Below are positions 36,512 to 63,584 of a DNA stretch of 64,000 bases, piece by piece. The notes beneath the pieces are model-generated. The model was not told the DNA's origin, ran no database searches, and worked only from the letters and a program-made list of their open reading frames with translations. Position 1 is the stretch's first letter; the number at the start of each line of letters is the position of its first letter. The stretch covers positions 124,001 through 188,000 of the forward strand of contig NZ_NCXM01000003.1 of NCBI RefSeq assembly GCF_002104765.1, given 5' to 3'. The stretch is from Mycolicibacterium vulneris (GTDB lineage: Bacteria; Actinomycetota; Actinomycetes; Mycobacteriales; Mycobacteriaceae). Both the position numbers and the translations under genes were made by a program.

Positions 36512-37732
36512 TCACAGCACCACCGAGTTGATCTTGAAGTCGATGATCTCGTCCTCGCTGAATCCCAGCTCGGCCAGCACGGCGTCGGTGTGCTCACCGT
36601 GTGCCGGCGCGCACGTGAGGTCCAGCGGTATCTCGTTGAACTGGGCGGGGCTTGCCGCCAGGGCGAACTCGTTGGCCTTGGCGTCGGTGACCCGAGGCAG
36701 GTACCCGTTGGCGATCACCTGCGGATCGCTGTGCACCTCGTGGGCGGTGCGCATGACGTCCCACACACCATCGAACCCGGCGAACGCCTTCTCCCAGTGC
36801 GCAAGGTTCTCCGACGCGAAGCTCTCCCGCAGTTCGGCGATGCACTGCTTGCGGTTGCCGAACCGCGCGGTGGCATGGGCGAAGCGCTGGTCGTCGATCA
36901 GGTCGGTGCGGCCCAGTCGGGTGCAGAAGTCCGACCAGAATCGGTCGGCCTGCAGCAGCACGAAGGCGATGAACCGGTTGTCGCGCGTCCGGTAGATGCT
37001 GGCCACCGGGTTGGGCATCTCGTCGAGGTTGAACTTGGGGATGTCCTGTCCGGTGACGCCGGCGCCGACGATGTCGGGGCCCAGCTGCCAGATTGCGGCG
37101 TTGAGCAGCGAGACGTCGACGACCGATGGCTCACGGGTGCGTTCGCGTTTCACCAGGGCTGCGGCAATACCGGCCGCGAGCGCCAGACCTCCGTAGGAGT
37201 CACCGAAGCCCGGTCGCTGAATCGGCGGATAGCAGCCGGTACCGTCGGCGTACGCATCGCCGATGCCGCCGCGCGCCCAGTACGCGGCCAGGTCGAAACC
37301 GCCCTGGGCGGTCAGGTCCCCCTTGGTGCCGTAACCATGGCCGCGGGCGTAGATGATGGTGGGGTTGCGGGCGCGGATCTGGTCGACGTCGATGCCCATC
37401 CGCTGTCGGGAGTCGGGCAGCAGGTTGGTGATGAAGACGTCGGCGGTCTCGATCAGCCTCATCAGCAGTTCAAGGCCTTCGGCGGTGGAGGTATCCAACC
37501 CGACACTGCGCTTGCCGCGGTTGGGCTGCTCGACGAAGTGGTTCACTCCCCCCGCGCCGGTGACGATCCCTGAGCTGATGAGCCCGCGCTGCGGGTCGCC
37601 TGTCTCGGGATGCTCGACCTTGATGACGTCGGCGCCCCAGTCGGCAAGCACCGCGCCGGCGGCCGGGACGAACGTCCACGCGGCCAGCTCGACCACACGG
37701 ATCCCGCTCAACACGTCAGTCATAGCGTCCAT
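36512..37732 (-). CDS. CaiB/BaiF (class III) CoA-transferase
   Basis: 406 residues of the formyl-CoA transferase/CaiB/Amacr superfamily. N-terminal IRVVELAAWTFVPAAGAVLA and ADVIKVEHPETGDP are followed by the catalytic Asp178 in RPGFGDSYGG. It should load CoA onto a carboxylic acid, or epimerise an alpha-methylacyl-CoA. First gene of the seven-gene minus operon. Two TTGAC-type boxes lie 135 and 225 nt upstream. An internal ATG at 37721-37723 is an alternative start. Confidence 0.87.
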   Translation of the reverse strand: MDAMTDVLSGIRVVELAAWTFVPAAGAVLADWGADVIKVEHPETGDPQRGLISSGIVTGAGGVNHFVEQPNRGKRSVGLDTSTAEGLELLMRLIETADVFITNLLPDSRQRMGIDVDQIRARNPTIIYARGHGYGTKGDLTAQGGFDLAAYWARGGIGDAYADGTGCYPPIQRPGFGDSYGGLALAAGIAAALVKRERTREPSVVDVSLLNAAIWQLGPDIVGAGVTGQDIPKFNLDEMPNPVASIYRTRDNRFIAFVLLQADRFWSDFCTRLGRTDLIDDQRFAHATARFGNRKQCIAELRESFASENLAHWEKAFAGFDGVWDVMRTAHEVHSDPQVIANGYLPRVTDAKANEFALAASPAQFNEIPLDLTCAPAHGEHTDAVLAELGFSEDEIIDFKINSVVL

Positions 37733-37866: not shown

Positions 37867-37882
37867 TTGACGTTTTTGTCAA
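37867..37882. promoter_or_regulatory. TTGAC-type box 1 upstream of CaiB operon
   Basis: TTGACGTTTTTGTCAA: arms TTGAC / GTCAA. Same spacing and consensus (TTGRCR-N4-YGTCAA) as the boxes at 37957, 59774 and 59796. Confidence 0.5.
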
Positions 37883-37956: not shown

Positions 37957-37972
37957 TTGACAATAATGTCAA
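37957..37972. promoter_or_regulatory. TTGAC-type box 2 upstream of CaiB operon
   Basis: TTGACAATAATGTCAA: perfect 6-nt arms TTGACA / TGTCAA around ATAA. Centre lies 90 nt from box 1. Confidence 0.55.
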
Positions 37973-38474
37973 CCGTGGCCGAGCTGGGGTTCGATCCATT
38001 GAGGCCCGGGCGCGCAGGACCGTTGTGCCGTCCGGGTGGACGTCGTGGTGTCGGGCTGCCTCATAGCTGTGCATCGGCCCCTGGCGTCTTTCTGGTGTCT
38101 CGCTGCGCGTGGCTTGTCGTCCTTTGGGGCGACCCTGGGCGAACGCCGCCTGGACGTCAGCGGGTGGCGCGTCTTCGATGACTCGCCCAACGATGACTGC
38201 GCGGCGGCGGGCTTCGCGAGCGCGGGCGCGGTCGATGCTGTGCCGAGATCGGCGACTGGGCGAAGTCCATCGTGATGGTCTCATTGCTGAGATCGCTTGC
38301 AGGTGATCGTCATTCAGTGTCGCTCGCCGCCTCTTGGGCTGAGGAACGACCGCCGGAAAGCTGCGTGACCGAGGCTAGCGAAGGAGGTCTGCCGAGGCGC
38401 GCGGTTACCGTTGGCCCGGCTTGGCGGTGCGAGCAGAATTGCCTGCATGTTCCAGCCCAAGCCTGATTGGACTT

Positions 38475-38490
38475 TGGCAATACACTGTCA
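38475..38490. promoter_or_regulatory. TGRCAG-N4-CTGYCA box upstream of TetR gene 1
   Basis: TGGCAATACACTGTCA, 98 nt before the TetR ATG. It shares the CTGTCATA half with four other sites between 49 and 51 kb. Confidence 0.5.
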
Positions 38491-38588
38491 TAGTTGGCGT
38501 CGGAGCCTCTGCGCGGCGGGGGTGTCAAATCTGGGCCGACGCCGTGGTTGTCGCTGTCGGGACATCGGAGACAGTCGAGGAGGGGCGG

Positions 38589-39179
38589 ATGGCGCGAGGC
38601 GATCGTTCACCGCGTGACGAGCATGCTGATCGGACGCGGAATGCGCTGCTGGAGGCCGCCCTGAATCTGTTCAGCGCCAACGGGTACGACGCGACTACCA
38701 CCGATCAGATCGCCGAGAGCGCGGGCGTTTCGCCGCGGACCTTCTACCGGTACTTCCCCGGCAAGGAGTCGGTGCTGTTTTTCGGTGAGTACGACTTCAT
38801 CGACGCCGTCAGCGGGGTCTACCTCGCGCAGCCCGAGGAGCTATCCGACTTCGAGGCGCTGGCAAGCTCGTTCGCGTTGCTTGCGCCGGGGCTTAAGCGC
38901 ATTCGCAAGCGGATCGCGCAGTACCACGAAGCGGTCGCCTCGTCGCTGGTGCTGATGGGCCGGGAGCGCAGTAATCACGAGGCCAATGCCACGACAGTGG
39001 CGAAGGTGATCGCCCAACGGCGGCATCTGCCGGCACCCGACGACGAGTGCCGTTTGCTGGCGGCCGTCGGGATGCTGCTGGTCCAACGTGCCCTCGATCA
39101 ATGGTTGTCGACACCGGGTCGCGCTCTCGACGATCTGATCCGTCAGGAGTTCGCGGCGCTGCCCGCGGTATTGAAGTAG
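38589..39179 (+). CDS. TetR-family regulator, copy 1
   Basis: 196 residues. The HTH is at about 16-62 (ALLEAALNLFSANGYDATTT, then QIAESAGVSPRTFYRYFPGK), followed by an all-helical ligand domain with YDFIDAVSGVYLAQPEELSD and LLVQRALDQWLS. It is a clear paralogue of the TetR at 49626-50216: same length, aligned throughout, recognition helix SPRTFYRYFPGK against STRTFFRYFPTK. ATG 38589 follows GGAGGGGCGG. An operator-like site lies in its promoter, so autoregulation and cross-regulation with the paralogue are likely. Confidence 0.87.
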   Translation: MARGDRSPRDEHADRTRNALLEAALNLFSANGYDATTTDQIAESAGVSPRTFYRYFPGKESVLFFGEYDFIDAVSGVYLAQPEELSDFEALASSFALLAPGLKRIRKRIAQYHEAVASSLVLMGRERSNHEANATTVAKVIAQRRHLPAPDDECRLLAAVGMLLVQRALDQWLSTPGRALDDLIRQEFAALPAVLK

Positions 39180-49176: not shown

Positions 49177-49513
49177 TAGTCAATGTACGGCTGCGGGCTC
49201 GGCGTCCGATCGACAGCGACCTGCGTCGCCAACCGTCGTGCGCGCCCCGGCGCGCGTGGCCTCCCTGCGCGCGTCGATGCCAGCGCACGGCTTGCGCGAT
49301 GATGCGCGCGCTTCCCGGGATTGGTGGCGCCAAGCCGGTGAATAGCCTGTTAGGAACCGTTATTTGAATGCCTGGACCGGCCTGCATAGGGTTGCTTCGT
49401 CGCTACGCGCCGGCACGGCGCGATCACATTCTCCGATACCCCGCCCGCCGCCGGCACCGACAGCTGCGTGCAGTGCTTGTGATCCGGCTATCACCGCCAA
49501 CCGTAGAGGATTT

Positions 49514-49529
49514 TGACAGTTCACTGTCA
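49514..49529. promoter_or_regulatory. TGRCAG-N4-CTGYCA box before TetR gene 2
   Basis: TGACAGTTCACTGTCA, a perfect 6+4+6 palindrome followed by TACTGTCGG, 97 nt upstream of the TetR start. Confidence 0.6.
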
Positions 49530-49625
49530 TACTGTCGGAATAGACGAGGGCTTGCCCGTGGTGCGGGGATCCTTCGAGGCCACTGTCACCCAGACCCGCA
49601 CATCGGCTTGAGGAGGTGCGCAGCG

Positions 49626-50216
49626 ATGGTGCGCGGTGAACGCTCGCCCCGTGGCGATCACGCCGATCGGGTGCGTAGCACGCTGGTCGACGTCGCACTC
49701 GATCTCTTCAGCGCGCAGGGATACGACGCAACGACCACCGACGAGATCGCCAAGGCGGCCGGCGTGTCCACGCGAACGTTCTTCCGTTACTTCCCCACCA
49801 AGCAGTCCATCTTGTTCTTCGGAGCCTATGACTTCATCCAAGGATTCCGGGGGGTCTATCTCGCCCAACCGACGTCGGTGTCAGACCTCGACGCCATGAC
49901 CGAGTCGTTCGCGTCGCTGGCAATCGGCCTGAAACGGATCCGCCGCCGCGTCTCGCTCTATCAGAAAGCGGTCGCCACCTCTGTGGTCCTGCGCGGTCAG
50001 GAACGCCAGGACCAGGATGGCAATGCACAGATCGTCGCGATGGCGGTCGCAGAGCGCCGCGGGCTTCCGACGCCGGATGCCGCGGCGGAGGTACTCGCCG
50101 GGGTCGGGCTGCTGCTGCTCGACCGTGCCGTCAAGCGGTGGGTATCGGGCCCCGATCACACCGTCGACGACCTCGTCCGGCACGAGTTCGCCGCGTTATC
50201 GGCCGCCTTGCGCTAG
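49626..50216 (+). CDS. TetR-family regulator, copy 2
   Basis: 196 residues. HTH with TLVDVALDLFSAQGYDATTT, then EIAKAAGVSTRTFFRYFPTK, and a ligand domain aligned end to end with the TetR at 38589-39179. ATG 49626 is preceded by GAGGAGG. It is divergent from the ten-gene minus operon and upstream of the SDR-FadD-esterase-WS/DGAT operon. Boxes of one sequence type lie on both sides, so it probably represses both. An acyl-CoA ligand is likely by family analogy. Confidence 0.88.
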   Translation: MVRGERSPRGDHADRVRSTLVDVALDLFSAQGYDATTTDEIAKAAGVSTRTFFRYFPTKQSILFFGAYDFIQGFRGVYLAQPTSVSDLDAMTESFASLAIGLKRIRRRVSLYQKAVATSVVLRGQERQDQDGNAQIVAMAVAERRGLPTPDAAAEVLAGVGLLLLDRAVKRWVSGPDHTVDDLVRHEFAALSAALR

Positions 50217-56122: not shown

Positions 56123-56944
56123 CTACATGGCGGTGTATCCGGCGTCGACGGGCAGGCACACCCCGGTGATGTAGCGGGCGTGGTCGCTGGCCAGCCACAC
56201 CACTGCGTTGGTGACGTCCTGTGCCTCGATGAACGGGACCGGAAGCAGGTTGGTGGCCAGCTTCGCCGCCGACGGATGCTCGGTAAACACTTGCGCCATG
56301 TGCTCGTTGACCACCATTGGAGTGAAGACCCCGGTCGGGTGCACCGTGTTGACCCGAATGCTGTGCTCGGCGTAAGAGGTAGCCGCCACCCTCATCAGGC
56401 CGACGACACCATGCTTTGACGCGGCGTAGGCGAAGGCTGCCGCGCTGCCGTCCCCACCTCGGCCCACCAGTCCCTGCGTCGAACTGGTCAGGATGATGGA
56501 GCCGCCGCGTCCTTTTCGGATCATCGAGGGCACTGAGGCTACCAGGGTGTTCCAGACCCCGAACAGGTTCGTCTCCACGATGTCTCGGTAGAGGCCCTGG
56601 TCGGTGGGGTCGGTCTTGCCCGTGGCCACCACGCCGGCGTTGGCGACCACGATGTCGATGTCCCCGAGTTCGGTGATTCCGGTCTCGGCAGCCGCTCGCA
56701 GGTCGACTAGGTCGCGGACATCTACCACCGACGTGTGAATCCGCCTGCCCCGATCACGGACGAGTTGCGCGGTCTGCTCCAGATCGTCGCGGCTGGAAAA
56801 GGAGTAGGGGATGGAATCCATATCGGCGGCGCGGTCGACCGCGATGATGTCGGCGCCTTGCTCGGCCATCGCTACCGCGTGGCTGCGGCCTTGCCCACGC
56901 GCAGCACCGGTGATCAGTGCGACTTTGTTGTCGAGCAGTCCCAT
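56123..56944 (-). CDS. Mycofactocin-type SDR oxidoreductase (second copy)
   Basis: 273 residues. ITGAARGQGRSHAV and the long helix-C insertion identify the same mycofactocin-coupled SDR group as the 50608 gene. Active-site sequence LTSSTQGLVGRGGDGS, then AYAASKHG. It should oxidise an alcohol intermediate using tightly bound NAD. It is monocistronic, with a TGRCAG-type box 90 nt upstream, suggesting control by the local TetR pair. Confidence 0.85.
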   Translation of the reverse strand: MGLLDNKVALITGAARGQGRSHAVAMAEQGADIIAVDRAADMDSIPYSFSSRDDLEQTAQLVRDRGRRIHTSVVDVRDLVDLRAAAETGITELGDIDIVVANAGVVATGKTDPTDQGLYRDIVETNLFGVWNTLVASVPSMIRKGRGGSIILTSSTQGLVGRGGDGSAAAFAYAASKHGVVGLMRVAATSYAEHSIRVNTVHPTGVFTPMVVNEHMAQVFTEHPSAAKLATNLLPVPFIEAQDVTNAVVWLASDHARYITGVCLPVDAGYTAM

Positions 56945-57033: not shown

Positions 57034-57049
57034 TGACAGTGATGTGTCA
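57034..57049. promoter_or_regulatory. TGRCAG-type box upstream of the second mycofactocin-type SDR
   Basis: TGACAGTGATGTGTCA: 5 of 6 arm bases pair. It lies 90 nt before the minus-strand SDR start. Confidence 0.5.
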
Positions 57050-57363: not shown

Positions 57364-59712
57364 CTACGAGTGGGCGACGATGTCGCGGATACGTTTCTTG
57401 TCGATTTTGCCGCTGGGCAGTGCGGGCAGTTCGTCGACGATGGCCAGCCGGCGCGGCACTTTGTACCGGGCCAGGGTGTCGCGCAGGAAGTGCTGGATGC
57501 GATCCAGGGTCAGCTGCGCGCCGGGTCGCAGCACCACGACCGCGGTGACGGCTTCACCCCACCGGGGATCCGGTGTTCCGACGACCGCGCAGTCCGCGAC
57601 CTCGTCGAGGCCGCGCAGCGCGAGCTCGACCTCTGGGGAGTACACGTTTTCCCCACCGCTGATGATCACGTCCTTCTTCCGGTCGACCAGATAGAGCAGC
57701 CCGTTTTTGTCGATGCGCCCGATATCGCCGGTGTGACACCATCCGTCGCGCAACGTCGCCAGCGTGGCGGCCTGGTCGTTCCAGTAGCCGCGAAACAGTG
57801 AGTCCGACTGAACGATGATCTCGCCCGGCTGGCCGGCGGGAACGTCGAGGCCGTCATCGTCGACGATGCGTATCGACACACCGGGAAAGGGGAATCCGAC
57901 CGATCCGAGTCGGTGTGCCGCTGTGGGGTTGTCGAGGGTGTGCAGTTCCCGTGGTAGTCCCGACACGATGGCTTCGGTTTGCCCGTAGAGGTTGGTGAAC
58001 CCGGCGTTGGGCATGGTCGTCAGCGCTTGGCGCAGGGTGTGCGGCGACATCGGCGCGGCGGAATAGACGACGGTGCGCACAGCGCCGAGGGCCTCGTGGG
58101 CGCCGGGTTCGTCCAGCAGGGCTTGGAGCATCACCGGGGCCAGATGCAGCAGGGTGATGCGTTCGGATGTAACCAACCGGAGGGCTTCTGCGGTGTCGAA
58201 ATGTGCTTGGAGGACTGCGGTTCCGCCGCGAGCGTGCAGGGCGCTGATGATGGCCAAGGCGCCGAAGTGGAACATCGGCATGTTGATCAGCCCGCGGTCG
58301 TCGGAGCCGGTGCGCATCTCGACGTTGGCCGCGAAAGCGATTCGGCGCAGTTCGCGGTGTCCGAGCATGCAGCACTTCGAAGGACCCGTGGTGCCGCTGG
58401 TGAATAGCAGGCACGCAATGTCGTCGGGTCGTGCGGCGAACGGCAGCGCATCGGCGACACCCTGCGCAATGAAGGCGTCGAGCCGCGTCATTCCCGGCGG
58501 AGGGGACGTACCGAGGCAGACGATCTGCCGAACCCCGCTCAGCTGGGGCGCGAGTTTGCCCACGGTGGAAGCGAACTCGTCGTCGCAAAATATGATGGAC
58601 GGCGTGACCCTGCGCAGGGCATCGAGGATTTCGGGTGCGGACAGCCGAAAGTTGATCGTTGCCATCATGATTCCGCTGAGCTGGGTGGCGGCCAACAACT
58701 CGCCGTATTCGATGCTGTTGCGACCGAGCACGGCGATGCGGTCTTGGCGGCGCAGTCCGCTCTGGGCCATCGCCGACGCCAACTTCACGCCGCGGTCACG
58801 CAACTGGCGATGGCTGATGACACGGGATCCGAGGCGGTAGGCCGCGACGTCAGGGAAGCGTTCGGCGTTGTCGATGACGATGTCACCCATCGTCATCGCC
58901 GCACCGCCGCCGGGGCGCGCAACAGTGGCCGATGCCCGTCGCGGCGGGGTGGTCGTGCCGTTATGCGGGGGTACCGGGGCAGTGTGGGGAGGTTGCGGCC
59001 GCGGCGTCTCCTCGGCGGGTCGCGTTGATTGAGTCGTGAGTGAGTCGTTGAGGATCGCCATGATCATGCCGGCGACGGTGGTGACCATGTCGTCGTCCTC
59101 CACCGGCAGGCCTTCCGGTCGCACGAAGTACCACGCGCGGTCCAGCAGGGCCAGCACCGCTAGCCCCAGAGTGTCGGTCGACGGAGTCGGCGATGATCGG
59201 CGTGCCTGCAGCGCGAGCCCCAGCGGGGCGGCCACGTGCATCTCCATCCGACGCGCGCCCTCCCGGAACGTGTCGCTGCTCGACGACCAACTGCTCGAGG
59301 ACAGGACGAAAGCGCCGTGGACGTCCATGTAGGCGAAGTAGGCGCCCACCCATGACTTCACGTCATCCAGCGTCGGATGAGCGCCGAGCGTCTCCCACCC
59401 TCTGACCACGGTCTGGGCGTCGTGGTAGGCATTCTGACCAAGTGCGGCAAACACCTCGGCCTTGTCCTTGAAGTAGGTGTAAAAGCCGGCGCGGGAGATC
59501 CCGCACTTCTCGGTGATGTCGTTGATGCGGGTACCGGCGTAGCCGCGACTGAGGAACAGGCTGCGGGCCGCCTCCAATATTGAGTCCCGCGTCTGCATCG
59601 CGCGAGGACTCAATGGGATGTCGTTGTGCTGTTGGTCCACAGTCCCGTCGCGGTTTGGTAAGGCCCGTATCGTCGCCTGATGATACTGCACAAGGGCGGG
59701 CGACCTGGTCAT
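57364..59712 (-). CDS. TetR repressor-acyl-CoA synthetase (FadD) fusion protein
   Basis: 782 residues in one uninterrupted frame. Residues ~38-228 are a full TetR protein: HTH with ILEAARSLFLSRGYAGTRIN, then ITEKCGISRAGFYTYFKDKA, and a helical ligand domain. Residues ~229-272 are a Pro/Thr/Arg-rich linker. Residues 273-782 are a complete ANL acyl-CoA ligase: P-loop TSGTTGPSK at 438-446, YGQTE 576-580, HTGDIGRIDKNG, SGGENVYSPEVE and catalytic Lys769 in LPSGKIDKK. Both halves look functional. An ATG at 58894-58896 could start a free ligase but lacks a good Shine-Dalgarno. Tandem TTGRC boxes precede the gene. It may sense the acyl-CoA it makes. A GTG at residue 25 is an alternative start. Confidence 0.88.
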   Translation of the reverse strand: MTRSPALVQYHQATIRALPNRDGTVDQQHNDIPLSPRAMQTRDSILEAARSLFLSRGYAGTRINDITEKCGISRAGFYTYFKDKAEVFAALGQNAYHDAQTVVRGWETLGAHPTLDDVKSWVGAYFAYMDVHGAFVLSSSSWSSSSDTFREGARRMEMHVAAPLGLALQARRSSPTPSTDTLGLAVLALLDRAWYFVRPEGLPVEDDDMVTTVAGMIMAILNDSLTTQSTRPAEETPRPQPPHTAPVPPHNGTTTPPRRASATVARPGGGAAMTMGDIVIDNAERFPDVAAYRLGSRVISHRQLRDRGVKLASAMAQSGLRRQDRIAVLGRNSIEYGELLAATQLSGIMMATINFRLSAPEILDALRRVTPSIIFCDDEFASTVGKLAPQLSGVRQIVCLGTSPPPGMTRLDAFIAQGVADALPFAARPDDIACLLFTSGTTGPSKCCMLGHRELRRIAFAANVEMRTGSDDRGLINMPMFHFGALAIISALHARGGTAVLQAHFDTAEALRLVTSERITLLHLAPVMLQALLDEPGAHEALGAVRTVVYSAAPMSPHTLRQALTTMPNAGFTNLYGQTEAIVSGLPRELHTLDNPTAAHRLGSVGFPFPGVSIRIVDDDGLDVPAGQPGEIIVQSDSLFRGYWNDQAATLATLRDGWCHTGDIGRIDKNGLLYLVDRKKDVIISGGENVYSPEVELALRGLDEVADCAVVGTPDPRWGEAVTAVVVLRPGAQLTLDRIQHFLRDTLARYKVPRRLAIVDELPALPSGKIDKKRIRDIVAHS

Positions 59713-59773
59713 GCAGATCGCTGAATCCGCGCCGTCGCACGGTATCGACGCAGTTCAAGACGCATTTACGAAC

Positions 59774-59789
59774 TTGGCATTGTTGTCAA
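59774..59789. promoter_or_regulatory. TTGAC-type box A upstream of TetR-FadD
   Basis: TTGGCATTGTTGTCAA. It fits TTGRCR-N4-YGTCAA and overlaps a second symmetry, ATTGTTG-T-CAACAAT (59779-59793). Confidence 0.6.
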
Positions 59790-59795
59790 CAATAC

Positions 59796-59811
59796 TTGGC
59801 GTTTGCGTCAA
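59796..59811. promoter_or_regulatory. TTGAC-type box B upstream of TetR-FadD
   Basis: TTGGCGTTTGCGTCAA. It lies exactly 22 nt (about two helical turns) from box A in the divergent promoter region shared with the SnoaL-like gene. Confidence 0.6.
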
Positions 59812-59911: not shown

Positions 59912-60334
59912 ATGGCTGACGTCGTTGCCGATACGAGCCGAGCGGAGATGGTGGCGGCTCTGCTGCGTGACTTCTCCGGTGGTGACTTCGACACCGCGAT
60001 GACGTTGTTCGCCGAGGAGATCGAGGTGCGGCTGCCGTTCCAGGATGAGCGCACCGGTTTTTGGTCTCACGTCAGGGGCAAGCGCGGTGTTCGGCAACTC
60101 TTCGAGGGGGTGGCCAAGCTGTTCGATCCGCACCCGCTACACCTCGACGAGGTGTTTTCCGCCACCGACGACAGGACTGTCGTGGCCCGCTATCACGGTG
60201 ATTTCGTGGCCCGCGACACCGGAAAGCCCTACCAGAACACCTACATCGCCGTGTTCGAGTTCGACGGCCGCCTGATCAGGTCATGGACGGAATTTCACAA
60301 CCCGATGGTGCTGGCCGAGGCGTTACGCCCCTAG
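59912..60334 (+). CDS. SnoaL/NTF2-like (ketosteroid-isomerase-fold) protein
   Basis: 140 residues with the cone-shaped NTF2 fold pattern: MVAALLRDFSGGDFDTAMTL, FAEEIEVRLPF, GKRGVRQLFEGVAKLF and a last strand IAVFEFDGRLIRSWTEFHNP. Members include ketosteroid isomerases, polyketide cyclases and limonene-epoxide-hydrolase-like enzymes. It is divergent from the TetR-FadD fusion and shares its operator region. Possibly an isomerase or hydratase for the ligase product. Confidence 0.82.
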   Translation: MADVVADTSRAEMVAALLRDFSGGDFDTAMTLFAEEIEVRLPFQDERTGFWSHVRGKRGVRQLFEGVAKLFDPHPLHLDEVFSATDDRTVVARYHGDFVARDTGKPYQNTYIAVFEFDGRLIRSWTEFHNPMVLAEALRP

Positions 60335-60342
60335 ATCAGCGC

Positions 60343-61566
60343 TCACCCTGCGCGCGCCTCGCGGGGCAACCCCAGGATCCGCTCGGCGATGATGTTGCGT
60401 TGAATCTCCGACGTGCCTGCGTAGATGGTGCCGGCCATCGCGTTGCACAGATGCACCGACAACCACGAGCTGGAATCGTTTGGCGCGCCGGCGTCATCGG
60501 CACGGAACCACCGCATGGGCATGTCACCGTCCCACGCCAGGGCATCCGTGCCCAGGATGTCGACGGCCAACCGCGTAGTGCTCTGGTGATACTCGCTCCA
60601 GTAGAGCTTGGCGACGGACGCCTCGGGCCCCAGCGACCCGTCGCGCATGTAGGCCGACAGGATCTTGTCGCCCAGCGCTTTCATCACCGCGACACCGAGA
60701 TAGGCGCGTCCGAGCCGCTCACGGGTCACCGGTTGCCGGTCAGCGCCGCGATCCTTGGCCAGCGCGAAGACGCGTTCGAGTTCATGGGCGAACAGAATCG
60801 GGTTGACCGCCGCTTCCTCGCCCCGTTCGTGGCTGAGCAGCGAATTGGCAACCGCCCAGCCGTTGTTGACCTCCCCGACGACCAGACCGGCCTCGGTCCG
60901 GGCGTCATTGAGAAAGACCTCGCAAAAGTCTTCGGTGTTGTTGAGCATCGTGATCGGCCGGACGTCGACACCAGGCTGGTCCATCGGCATCAGCAGCATG
61001 CTGATGCCCTTGGACTTCGGCGCGTCCGGGTCGGTGCGGGCCAACAGGAACATCCAGTTGGCGTTTGTCGCGTTCGAGGTCCAGATCTTCTGGCCGTCGA
61101 TGTGCCACTGGTCGCCTTCGCGTCGGGCACGGGTTCGCAGACCCGCGAGGTCTGAACCGGCCTCGGGCTCGGAGTAGCCCTGGCACCAGATGTCCTCGCC
61201 GCTGATGATGCGGGGCAGGAACCGCAGCTTCTGTTCGTGAGTTCCCCAGGCCGCCAACGTGTTCCCGAGCAGCTTCATCGACAGCGTGTCGCCCGGGCTG
61301 CCCACCGGCACCCTGGCGCGGGAGAACTCTTCGACCACCACCAGGTGGTCCAGTTTGGTCAGGCCCCGCCCGCCGTAGGCCACCGGCCACGTCACGCCGA
61401 GCATTCCGGCGTGCGCGCACAGGCGGCGCCACCGGTCGACGAACTCACGGCGCTGCGGCCCGGGCAGCGCGCCGGGACCCGACCAGTCGGCGGGGAGGTT
61501 GGCTCGAAGAAACGCCCTGACCTCATCACGGAACCCGGGCGTCTCGGCTGGTCCTGTCGCGGTCAC
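60343..61566 (-). CDS. Acyl-CoA dehydrogenase, large/alpha-type subunit
   Basis: About 407 residues. FAD/substrate block YSEPEAGSDLAGLRTRA, then GQKIWTSNATNANWMFLLAR and the terminal IYAGTSEIQRNIIAERILGLP. YEGT is YAGT, so the catalytic base lies elsewhere, as in steroid-type alpha2beta2 FadE enzymes. GTG 61564-61566 (VTATGPAETPGFRDEVRAFL) chosen over TTG 61584. It is divergent from another FadE gene 93 nt away, and the two probably form a heteromer. Confidence 0.87.
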   Translation of the reverse strand: MTATGPAETPGFRDEVRAFLRANLPADWSGPGALPGPQRREFVDRWRRLCAHAGMLGVTWPVAYGGRGLTKLDHLVVVEEFSRARVPVGSPGDTLSMKLLGNTLAAWGTHEQKLRFLPRIISGEDIWCQGYSEPEAGSDLAGLRTRARREGDQWHIDGQKIWTSNATNANWMFLLARTDPDAPKSKGISMLLMPMDQPGVDVRPITMLNNTEDFCEVFLNDARTEAGLVVGEVNNGWAVANSLLSHERGEEAAVNPILFAHELERVFALAKDRGADRQPVTRERLGRAYLGVAVMKALGDKILSAYMRDGSLGPEASVAKLYWSEYHQSTTRLAVDILGTDALAWDGDMPMRWFRADDAGAPNDSSSWLSVHLCNAMAGTIYAGTSEIQRNIIAERILGLPREARAG

Positions 61567-61616
61567 AAGGCCACCCCCGGGCAATTGCCAAGAATCATAT
61601 AGAGGATACTAATGTA

Positions 61617-61628: not shown

Positions 61629-61659
61629 CTAATATGGTGCTTTGACTGGAGGGGGCCGA

Positions 61660-62784
61660 ATGCCGTTGCTGACCGATGACGACCGGATGGAGTTCCGGAT
61701 CTGGGTCCGCGACGGCCTGCAGCAGCACGCGCCATTGGCCCGGACGCGACAACTGGCCGAGTCGGGTCGCCGCGACGACCCGATTCTGTGCGGGAGCCTC
61801 GCGGAATTGGGGGTGTTCGGACTGGCGACGCCCGAGGAGTACGGCGGCGGTGACGTCGGTGCGGCAGGGTTGGCCATTTTCCTGATGGAGGCCGGCCGGT
61901 GCCTGTTGCCCGCGCCGTATCTGTCGACCGCCGTGCTGGCGCCGACAGCGATCCGGTGGGCCGGCGCCGAGGAACACTTCGCCGATCTACTCAAAGGCAT
62001 CGTTCAGGGACAGGCGCGGGTGGCGCTGGCGTTGAGCCCGTTGGATGGCGCCGCGCCCCGCGCCACGCATGATGGACACACTTGGCGGGTCAGCGGCGCC
62101 GAACCGGCCGTGCTGGAAGCTGATGTGGCGGATTGGCTGATCGTGGCCGCCGAAACCGATACCGGGCCTGGGCTATTCGTGGTCGACGGGCACGACGCCG
62201 GGGTGTGCATCGAGGCGCTTCGCTCCGTCGATGCGACCCGGCCGGTTGCGGCTGTCACCTTCGACGCTGTACCGGCAGTCGCGCTGGGTGAGGTGGATGC
62301 CGCGGCGGCGCTGCGAGCCCGGCTGCAGGACCTCATTCGCTTGGCGATAGCCGCCGATGCGGTCGGGGGTGCTCAACGGCTGCTGGACATGTCGGTGGAC
62401 TACGCCAAGACGCGGGTTCAGTTCGGCCGACCGATCGGCTCCTTTCAGGCGATCAAGCACCGCTGCGCCGACCTGTTCGTGGCGGTGCAGGCCGCCACCG
62501 CCGCGGTGGAGGCGGCGTTCGACCACCTCGATCAGCCACAGCCGATCCCGGTGTCGGCGGCGGTGGCCGCGGTCTGCGCGCACGAGGCGAACTGGCAGGC
62601 GGTCCGGACCGCCATGCAAATCCATGGTGGGCTCGCCTTGACGTGGGAGCACGAGGTGCAGCTCTATTTGAAACGCGCGACGGCATCCCAGCACCTGTTG
62701 GGCAATCCCGACCGGGAGCTGGCCCGGCTCACCGATCTGGTGCTCGCCGAGGGCTACGACGTGGCCCAAGAGATCATCGGATGA
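61660..62784 (+). CDS. Acyl-CoA dehydrogenase, small/beta-type subunit
   Basis: 374 residues. It has the acyl-CoA dehydrogenase fold (TPEEYGGGDVGAAGLAIFL, TRVQFGRPIGSFQAIKHRCA, MQIHGGLALTWEHEVQLYLK), but the central SEPGAGSD motif is lost (ALSPLDGAAPRATHDG) and the C-terminal TSEIQ block is absent. That is the pattern of the non-FAD-motif partner in heteromeric FadE pairs of mycobacterial steroid metabolism. ATG 61660 follows GGAGGGGG. Partner most likely the divergent gene at 60343-61566. Confidence 0.85.
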   Translation: MPLLTDDDRMEFRIWVRDGLQQHAPLARTRQLAESGRRDDPILCGSLAELGVFGLATPEEYGGGDVGAAGLAIFLMEAGRCLLPAPYLSTAVLAPTAIRWAGAEEHFADLLKGIVQGQARVALALSPLDGAAPRATHDGHTWRVSGAEPAVLEADVADWLIVAAETDTGPGLFVVDGHDAGVCIEALRSVDATRPVAAVTFDAVPAVALGEVDAAAALRARLQDLIRLAIAADAVGGAQRLLDMSVDYAKTRVQFGRPIGSFQAIKHRCADLFVAVQAATAAVEAAFDHLDQPQPIPVSAAVAAVCAHEANWQAVRTAMQIHGGLALTWEHEVQLYLKRATASQHLLGNPDRELARLTDLVLAEGYDVAQEIIG

Positions 62785-62828: not shown

Positions 62829-63584
62829 TCAGCCGAGCATCTCCACCACCGTTTTGGCCAACGGGCGGGCGGTGTAGTGGTGCTCGATCTCGTCGAGGTG
62901 CTTGTTCCACAATTCAATCGCGGCATCGGTGTCGCGGCGTTCGATCAGCGTCACAAAATAAGCGTGCGTGCGATGCACTTCGCCGTACTCAACGCCCAAC
63001 TCACCGGGCGCCAGCGCCTCGACGTAGCGGGTCCGCGCCGGCAGCAAGAGGTGGTACAGCACCTCCACGGTGGTGCGGACCGTCTCGTTGCCGGCGAGTT
63101 CGGCGACCAGCAGGTGAAAGTTGATGTCGTGGCGGGCATACTCGGCCGGGTTCGCGATGTGCGGTGTCGCCTCGGTGATCGCCTGGCTGAGCCGGGATAC
63201 GTTCTGGCGACGTTTGTCTCGCGCGACCGCCTCGCCCAAGGGCCGTTCCAGCGCGCTACGCGCACGGTAGACATCAGCCATCGTGGTGCCGCGATATTGC
63301 AGCAGATATCCCAGATGACGCGCTGCCATGACGCCGTCGGGGGGCTTGACGCGTGCGCCGCCCAGGGCGCCGCGCCGCACGACGATCAACGCCTCGGACT
63401 CCAGGATGCGGAACGCTTCGCGCAGGGTGGGCCGGCTGACGTCGAACTGCTCCATCAATACGGCTTCGGCCGGCAGCAGCGCATCGGCCGGAAGTTCACC
63501 GGTGATGATCTGTCCGCGCAGACTGGCGGCGACCAGCTCGGCGGCCTTGGGAACCCGGACGGCACCAAAGGACGCTGCCGTCAT
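62829..63584 (-). CDS. GntR-family (FCD subclass) regulator, second
   Basis: 251 residues. N-terminal winged HTH (LVAASLRGQIITGELPADAL, LLPAEAVLMEQFDVSRPTLR, EAFRILESEALIVVRRG) and FCD domain with RSALERPLGEAVARD, HDINFHLLVAELAGNE and EVHRTHAYFVTLIERRD. Similar in plan to the 2180 GntR, but the recognition helix SRPTLREAFR differs (SRATVREALR), so a different operator is expected. It is divergent from a MaoC gene across 212 nt that contain a weak TGT-AGA-ACA element near 63652. Confidence 0.87.
   Translation of the reverse strand: MTAASFGAVRVPKAAELVAASLRGQIITGELPADALLPAEAVLMEQFDVSRPTLREAFRILESEALIVVRRGALGGARVKPPDGVMAARHLGYLLQYRGTTMADVYRARSALERPLGEAVARDKRRQNVSRLSQAITEATPHIANPAEYARHDINFHLLVAELAGNETVRTTVEVLYHLLLPARTRYVEALAPGELGVEYGEVHRTHAYFVTLIERRDTDAAIELWNKHLDEIEHHYTARPLAKTVVEMLG

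Follow-up and report, generated by a model that had tools for sequence, protein, structure and literature searches.

Why would a single gene encode both a repressor of the TetR family and a complete acyl-CoA synthetase of the ANL family, and might the enzyme make the signal to which the repressor responds? The question is raised by a gene of Mycolicibacterium vulneris located in the 64,000 nucleotides analysed here (contig NZ_NCXM01000003.1, positions 124,001 to 188,000; hereafter the window, whose numbering is used). It forms a single stop-free frame of 782 codons counted from ATG, with the following parts:

57364–59712, minus strand: TetR-ANL fusion gene; longest ATG frame 782 amino acids, likely GTG start at 59640 giving 758 amino acids, start chosen by conservation
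59047–59607, minus strand: TetR domain, residues 36–222, from structural models and Pfam TetR_N (residues 45–91, 59440–59580)
58906–59043, minus strand: disordered linker rich in Pro, Thr and Arg, residues 224–269
57781–58872, minus strand: ANL ligase large domain, residues 281–644, from Pfam, model and motifs
57406–57633, minus strand: ANL ligase C-terminal domain, residues 694–769, with Lys769, from Pfam and motifs

The Pfam matches, which all clear their cut-offs by a wide margin, are TetR_N (residues 45–91, 2.5e-14), AMP-binding (281–644, 1.1e-69) and AMP-binding_C (694–769, 2e-18), which bears out the proposal of an earlier note that a TetR regulator is fused in frame to a full acyl-CoA synthetase. 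The N-terminal half belongs to the TetR family, with a TetR_N score of 53.2 bits against a cut-off of 24 and the all-helical ligand-domain fold of these regulators. The C-terminal half is an ANL ligase by its AMP-binding domain, its C-terminal domain and its catalytic motifs, which are all present, as the note had also said, from TSGTTGPSK (438–446) through LPSGKIDKK with the final Lys769. The note had placed the element at 57364–59811, of which the frame at 57364–59712 is real, while 59774–59811 lies outside the open reading frame and is the exact span of two predicted operators described below.

The top-scoring solved relative of the ligase half is the feruloyl-CoA synthetase 8wev (1.4e-80), and that of the TetR half by sequence is Mce3R (9b7y, 1e-8). 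For the ligase half, the 25 best of 122 NCBIfam models all stay below their own cut-offs, and the model of FadD3, the HIP-CoA synthetase (NF005801), gives 304.6 bits against a cut-off of 657. No biotin ligase model matches the fusion at E≤0.001, its ligase domain being AMP-binding PF00501, and the MftR-type C-terminal domain PF17754 has no match at the same threshold; the predicted operator motif is also other than GGCA-N5-TGCC. Public annotations, where present, call the protein an acyl-CoA synthetase or an AMP-binding protein, or list the two domains next to each other.

Translation more likely begins at the GTG at 59640 (codon 25) than at the first ATG, because the sequence around this GTG is kept even in orthologues that lack the TetR domain and the 24 codons ahead of it are poorly conserved. 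In the full-length AlphaFold2 model, with a mean predicted local distance difference test (pLDDT) score of 77.7, the ligase is confident, the TetR region is helical and the linker (224–269) falls below 50. The TetR part of this model is weak, since the underlying alignment misplaced half of each free TetR row, and a TetR-only model (pLDDT 87.3) was used instead. Its closest fold is EthR, followed by FasR, QacR, DesT with palmitoyl-CoA, FadR and MbdR, all with similar scores; such fold similarity names no ligand by itself.

The architecture is not confined to one genome. A protein search with the TetR part, made among proteins long enough to be fusions and reaching only relatives that share short words, returned eight matches: the cluster of the window protein at 90% identity (P0002), which represents 17 sequences, six further proteins with TetR_N and AMP-binding domains (among them P0003, a fragment of 535 residues), and one double-TetR protein without a ligase. 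Further TetR-ANL fusions of independent origin may exist beyond the reach of this search. The search across genomes that the earlier note had recommended thus finds the fusion in eight distinct proteins, those of the window, M. rhizamassiliense, M. numidiamassiliense and M. alvei and four more, one of them the fragment. M. rhizamassiliense and M. alvei were named as hosts by the protein search and M. numidiamassiliense by the genome scan; two of the six further proteins are those of two of the three other fused genomes, and genome G020 was assigned to M. alvei, whose fused protein it encodes. Related species are not independent samples in this or any other genome or locus count given here. The frames of the three other fused genomes are uninterrupted over 794–821 codons, and the fusion is therefore not a chance event or an assembly slip. 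An assembly or frameshift artefact between the domains is ruled out by these independent genomes together with the 17 member sequences.

A plasmid origin was considered and rejected: among 3164 matching plasmid records, the best place never reaches 60% identity. In two plasmid records a single place spans 80% or more of the fusion query, and both stand outside the 60 matches listed.

Ratios of nonsynonymous to synonymous substitution rates (dN/dS), calculated for three species pairs from the window, M. rhizamassiliense and M. alvei, are 0.07–0.10 for the helix-turn-helix (HTH), 0.19–0.27 for the TetR ligand domain, 0.13–0.19 for the ANL large domain and 0.14–0.23 for the ANL C-terminal domain. 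For residues 226–272 of the linker they reach 0.72–1.22. These values indicate that both domains are under purifying selection, with a tether that drifts but stays in frame. Linker insertions and deletions keep the frame, including 69 extra bases in M. numidiamassiliense. All 14 aligned rows show an identical recognition region in the fused HTH and its unfused relatives.

Within the M. numidiamassiliense linker (L032, 8729–8830), 102 bases are identical to a stretch just upstream of the neighbouring short-chain dehydrogenase/reductase (SDR) gene, seen in locus L031 from 10705 and in L032 itself. This copy, with its net gain of 69 bases in frame, may reflect either local recombination or an assembly chimera.

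The aligned promoters of the fused genes contain two tandem copies of TTGAC...GCCAAG, which in the window are:

59796–59811, minus strand: predicted operator 1 of the fusion's own promoter, TTGACGCAAACGCCAA, from promoter alignment and motif counts
59774–59789, minus strand: predicted operator 2 of the same promoter, TTGACAACAATGCCAA, from promoter alignment

These palindromes are conserved in the fused loci and are predicted to be bound by the TetR half, the likely operator of this TetR family being TTGAC-N6-GYCAA. Of 46 TetR genes of the family, 39 have an exact copy of TTGRC-N6-GYCAA upstream and 4 more a copy with one mismatch, against 0.2% and 2.8% in single-base shuffles. These 46 regions are what is left of 69 loci after removal of exact duplicates and of those in which no TetR match was found, and about eight of them do not count as independent, because the four fused promoters and about as many unfused regions had been viewed before the consensus was fixed. 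A spacer of 6 is found in 43 regions, compared with 0–6 of the 46 at other spacers, and the three misses are all from Frankia. Operator-like sites are kept in the four fused loci and are absent from the ligase promoter where the TetR domain is missing. An identity with the Mce3R-type operator was rejected, as the latter is nonpalindromic.

The same motif also occurs as a pair elsewhere in the window, upstream of a gene that is a predicted target:

37867–37882, plus strand: predicted operator, first of two ahead of a class III CoA-transferase gene, perfect motif match
37957–37972, plus strand: predicted operator, second of the pair, 90 bp start to start, perfect motif match
36512–37732, minus strand: predicted target of the operator pair, a gene of CoA-transferase family III

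Pairs spaced at 89–90 bp occur in 4 of 297 genomes, and these are the four that carry the fusion; there are eight pairs in total and none in the reversed control. The probability of such a 4/4 overlap by chance is about 3e-9, in a calculation that ignores the near-identity of two of the four genomes there. The search pattern fixed both the 89–90 bp spacing and the GTCAA halves and was thus blind to the sites of three unfused loci, where the distance is 66–69 bp and every two sites include one with a mismatch. M. europaeum (G062) was in the sample of 297 and has no pair; a TetR-less metagenome-assembled genome (G357) was outside it. The second half of the fusion's own sites is GCCAA in all four fused genomes, compared with GTCAA at the paired sites, where the search itself required it.

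In the three genomes whose surroundings were inspected (G000, that of M. vulneris itself, G020 and G266), the pairs lie in divergent promoters no more than about 22 kb from the fusion. The promoters are those between enoyl-CoA hydratase and amidohydrolase genes, between CoA-transferase and TetR genes and, in M. vulneris only, between P450 and MmgE-PrpD genes. The amidohydrolase promoter of M. alvei has one perfect site and, as judged by eye, one with a mismatch. The amidohydrolase behind a paired promoter is 72–76% identical to one that is divergent from the unfused TetR, which has its own operator sites, and the fused and unfused regulators thus appear to share a target.

In M. vulneris three operator pairs at 89–90 bp spacing lie within 43 kb (G000:C67, 161867–204870). 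This region looks like the local regulon of a catabolic island with a P450, an amidohydrolase, CoA-transferases and acyl-CoA dehydrogenases. The island also holds two TetR genes with the MftR-type C-terminal domain PF17754, at 38421–39179 and 49368–50216, which have relatives elsewhere in the same genome. The first is an unlikely owner of the site pairs, because its relatives occur in 31 of 294 genomes and the pairs only in the four fused ones. The second, which has matches at E≤1e-50 in 3 of 61 genomes with M. vulneris counted, may be an alternative user of the operator sites.

The genes around the fusion are the following:

59912–60334, plus strand: SnoaL-like gene divergent from the fusion, with a common promoter region
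60343–61584, minus strand: acyl-CoA dehydrogenase, syntenic in three other fused loci
61642–62784, plus strand: acyl-CoA dehydrogenase, syntenic in three other fused loci
62829–63584, minus strand: GntR/FCD regulator, syntenic in three other fused loci
56123–56944, minus strand: mycofactocin-coupled SDR downstream of the fusion, syntenic in three other fused loci

Upstream of the mycofactocin-coupled SDR lies another palindrome, TGACA-N6-TGTCA, with halves farther apart than in the TetR-family operator; it is found in the window (57034–57049) and in M. rhizamassiliense (L031, 10290–10830).

How the two modules came together is suggested by their unfused relatives. Among 396 genomes of the genus, the TetR is present in 46 (E≤1e-40), four of them with the fusion in open frames of 796–821 codons, the close ligase in 46 and both in 41 (Fisher 1.6e-44), with five genomes having the TetR only and five the ligase only; in the scans of TetR and ligase, the best 7 and best 3 candidates per genome were scored. 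A ligase place lies within 15 kb of 36 of the 53 TetR places, including the four fusions, and in 35 of these 36 both are on the same strand with the TetR 5'. Of the remainder, 10 share a contig with a ligase place at a greater distance, and the contigs of the other 7 give no ligase match. Unfused pairs also occur in loci of Frankia, Gordonia and Williamsia, and M. vulneris has one on a different contig (L110). Judged from this distribution, the unfused TetR and ligase are old, linked partners.

In a quick tree of the ligases all fused proteins and the TetR-less ones form a single clade (13 rows, Shimodaira–Hasegawa-like approximate likelihood ratio test 100). The TetR-less ligases of M. europaeum and MAG_CO287, each entered under two locus ids, group beside the fused P0007 (91). 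They are encoded at the same syntenic position by 573-codon frames that retain the leader (GTVDQQ...ALS) and the linker end (...AGMTMGDIV) and are missing the TetR domain. The simplest reading is that the TetR domain was probably lost in frame in the M. europaeum lineage, giving one fusion and one loss. M. europaeum also has a free TetR of the same family 25 kb off, divergent from an amidohydrolase gene and with an operator in between.

Doubling is another arrangement of these modules. P0009, a protein of 430 residues with 51% identity over the query, appears to have two tandem TetR domains of the same family, from which this family seems also to have been doubled. At L110 (10535–11866, minus strand) M. 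vulneris has a 443-residue double-TetR gene with an Mce3R-like layout, tail to tail with the gene of the unfused ligase. The mycobacterial loci L040, L041, L042, L045, L047, L061, L064 and L083 have TetR matches in comparable positions. The unfused ligase paralogue of M. numidiamassiliense (L079) and the ligase of M. helveticum (L077) match in a single frame only over residues 3–327 and 3–340 of about 510, and may be broken.

Taken together, the TetR half probably uses TTGAC-N6-GYCAA operators to repress the fusion gene and catabolic promoters in its vicinity, and the ligase half probably supplies the acyl-CoA by which the repressor is released. A role of the HTH half as local repressor is very likely, as suggested by the operator sites, the restriction of the pairs to fused genomes and the amidohydrolase link to the unfused TetR. 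Analogy with known pairs makes it plausible that the inducer is the product of the ligase. The reading of the earlier note, in which the repressor generates its own inducer in cis, is partly supported by the single chain, its two conserved domains and the conserved operator-like sites; action in cis would be a further assumption. We infer that the protein binds DNA and represses, that the ligase is active on an acid substrate, and that the inducer is its product or a later acyl-CoA of the pathway.

In the proposed mechanism, a TetR dimer would occupy the paired sites when no substrate is present and hold the divergent promoters closed. The own-promoter sites, with GCCAA in place of GTCAA, may bind more weakly, and with this weaker self-repression some ligase-repressor would be made at a basal level. 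The attached ligase half would convert an incoming acid to its acyl-CoA. This ester, or a CoA ester formed later in the pathway, would occupy the TetR pocket and derepress the regulon, a step proposed by analogy with KstR2/FadD3, MbdR, BkaR beside fadD35, and MftR.

Several points weigh slightly against this interpretation. EthR and QacR rank among the nearest folds to the TetR half. The motif is short and across whole genomes mostly no commoner than its reversed control; the 16-base form is above the control in M. vulneris and below it in G020. The longer CTTGRC-N6-GYCAAG is rarer than its reversed control in six of six genomes, and in a fused promoter it occurs in M. vulneris only, with no match in G020, G266 and G268. 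In the 6.27-Mb genome of M. vulneris it has four places, of which two are the promoters of the fused and unfused TetR. In favour of the interpretation, 8 of the 30 distinct TTGAC-N6-GYCAA sites of this genome fall in the 43 kb around the fusion. The operator evidence rests on the position of the sites, not on their genome-wide frequency. In six other TetR-like loci of the same genome the best operator match has one or two mismatches, which is uninformative since whole loci were scanned and not promoters.

A stronger form of this reading, put forward tentatively, is a self-inducing repressor. The two ligase domains of the dimer would charge the acid as it arrives and hand the acyl-CoA to their own or the neighbouring TetR pocket, and the regulon would read turnover at the DNA and not the free pool. 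The protein would then be a TetR counterpart of BirA for catabolism, produced by one fusion of neighbours and undone once in the M. europaeum lineage.

The best-surviving rival, somewhat unlikely but to be taken seriously, holds that both halves are functional, came from one catabolic locus and were joined only for co-expression, the TetR ligand being some metabolite other than the product of the attached ligase. In its favour are the length, disorder and lack of constraint of the linker, the occurrence of the modules as separate neighbours in most genomes with both, and their separation in M. europaeum; against this stand the eight distinct fused proteins and the acyl-CoA ligands of the nearest analogous TetR/ligase pairs, KstR2 and MbdR. 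It is improbable that separate products are formed, through an internal start near residue 273 or cleavage of the linker, so that a free ligase results and the fused frame matters little. The exposed, unconstrained linker and a Met at its end, retained in most fused proteins, would permit this, but P0005 has Leu at the Met position, the longest unfused ligase frames start about eight codons earlier, no strong ribosome site is seen upstream by eye, and the frame survives indels that include the 69 extra bases of M. numidiamassiliense. Quite improbable, too, is a product that acts as co-repressor, with the adenylate or acyl-CoA tightening DNA binding and the genes shut on product build-up. BirA, an adenylate-forming ligase with an HTH, acts so with biotinoyl-AMP as its signal, but the predicted sites precede catabolic genes, and the documented logic in related cases is release by a substrate-derived CoA ester. 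It is hardly credible that a working ligase carries the TetR part as a relic that no longer binds DNA, in spite of the probable loss of this part in the M. europaeum lineage, given the constraint on the HTH, its unchanged recognition region and operators that are kept in the four fused loci and absent where the TetR is missing.

Identifying the ligand of a TetR regulator is usually the hard part. These regulators are abundant in mycobacteria (PMC3920632). Here the fusion itself points to the likely ligand class, because a candidate inducer-making enzyme is attached. The locus is moreover a natural experiment in which the same ligase is fused, unfused beside the TetR, or missing the TetR part, with operators that follow the TetR; the effect of physical coupling between enzyme and repressor on a metabolic switch is therefore directly testable.

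The earlier note had known of no described system of this kind. For the pairing of TetR with an ANL ligase, no description of such a fused repressor was found in titles or abstract openings among the matches listed, and none of the fusion terms tried occurs in a survey of mycobacterial TetRs (PMC4482099). As a concept the statement is too strong, since enzyme-repressors such as BirA and PutA and partnerships of TetR and ligase from separate genes are already known.

PutA is a redox-switched flavoenzyme with another DNA-binding fold and no CoA-ester sensor, and BirA uses its own adenylate as the regulatory signal in biosynthetic co-repression, not catabolic induction, with folds unrelated to those of the fusion. 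PutA is described as a catabolic enzyme that also represses its own operon (PMC6978683), and BirA as biotin protein ligase and bio repressor in one protein (PMC6391492, PMC4016012), which like the fusion joins an enzyme and a DNA-binding domain in one chain.

Among TetR proteins, Mce3R is reported to have two TetR domains, a nonpalindromic operator and no enzyme (PMC11667970), and resembles the fusion as an unusual multi-domain TetR protein. MftR, a mycobacterial TetR bound by long-chain acyl-CoAs, has another operator, T-N2-GGCA-N5-TGCC-N2-A, and no fused enzyme (PMC8728441). MbdR is a repressor working with 3-methylbenzoyl-CoA (PMC4424350), and BkaR (Fad35R) is divergent from fadD35 with two palindromes in between (PMC3920632); unlike the fusion, both are encoded by separate genes, and the BkaR operator, GTTA(N)T(N4)A(N)TAAC, is unlike that of the fusion.

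A close parallel in logic is that of KstR2 and FadD3 in mycobacterial HIP catabolism, although the KstR2 motif presumably differs from the operator predicted here. The KstR2 effector, HIP-CoA, is made by FadD3, an ANL ligase of the same regulon (PMC5380842). KstR2 and FadD3 are encoded by two separate genes, and the window ligase scores below the FadD3 cut-off. As FadD3 supplies the effector of KstR2, the attached ANL ligase would supply that of the TetR half, and by this analogy KstR2 and FadD3 follow, with two genes, the logic proposed for the fusion.

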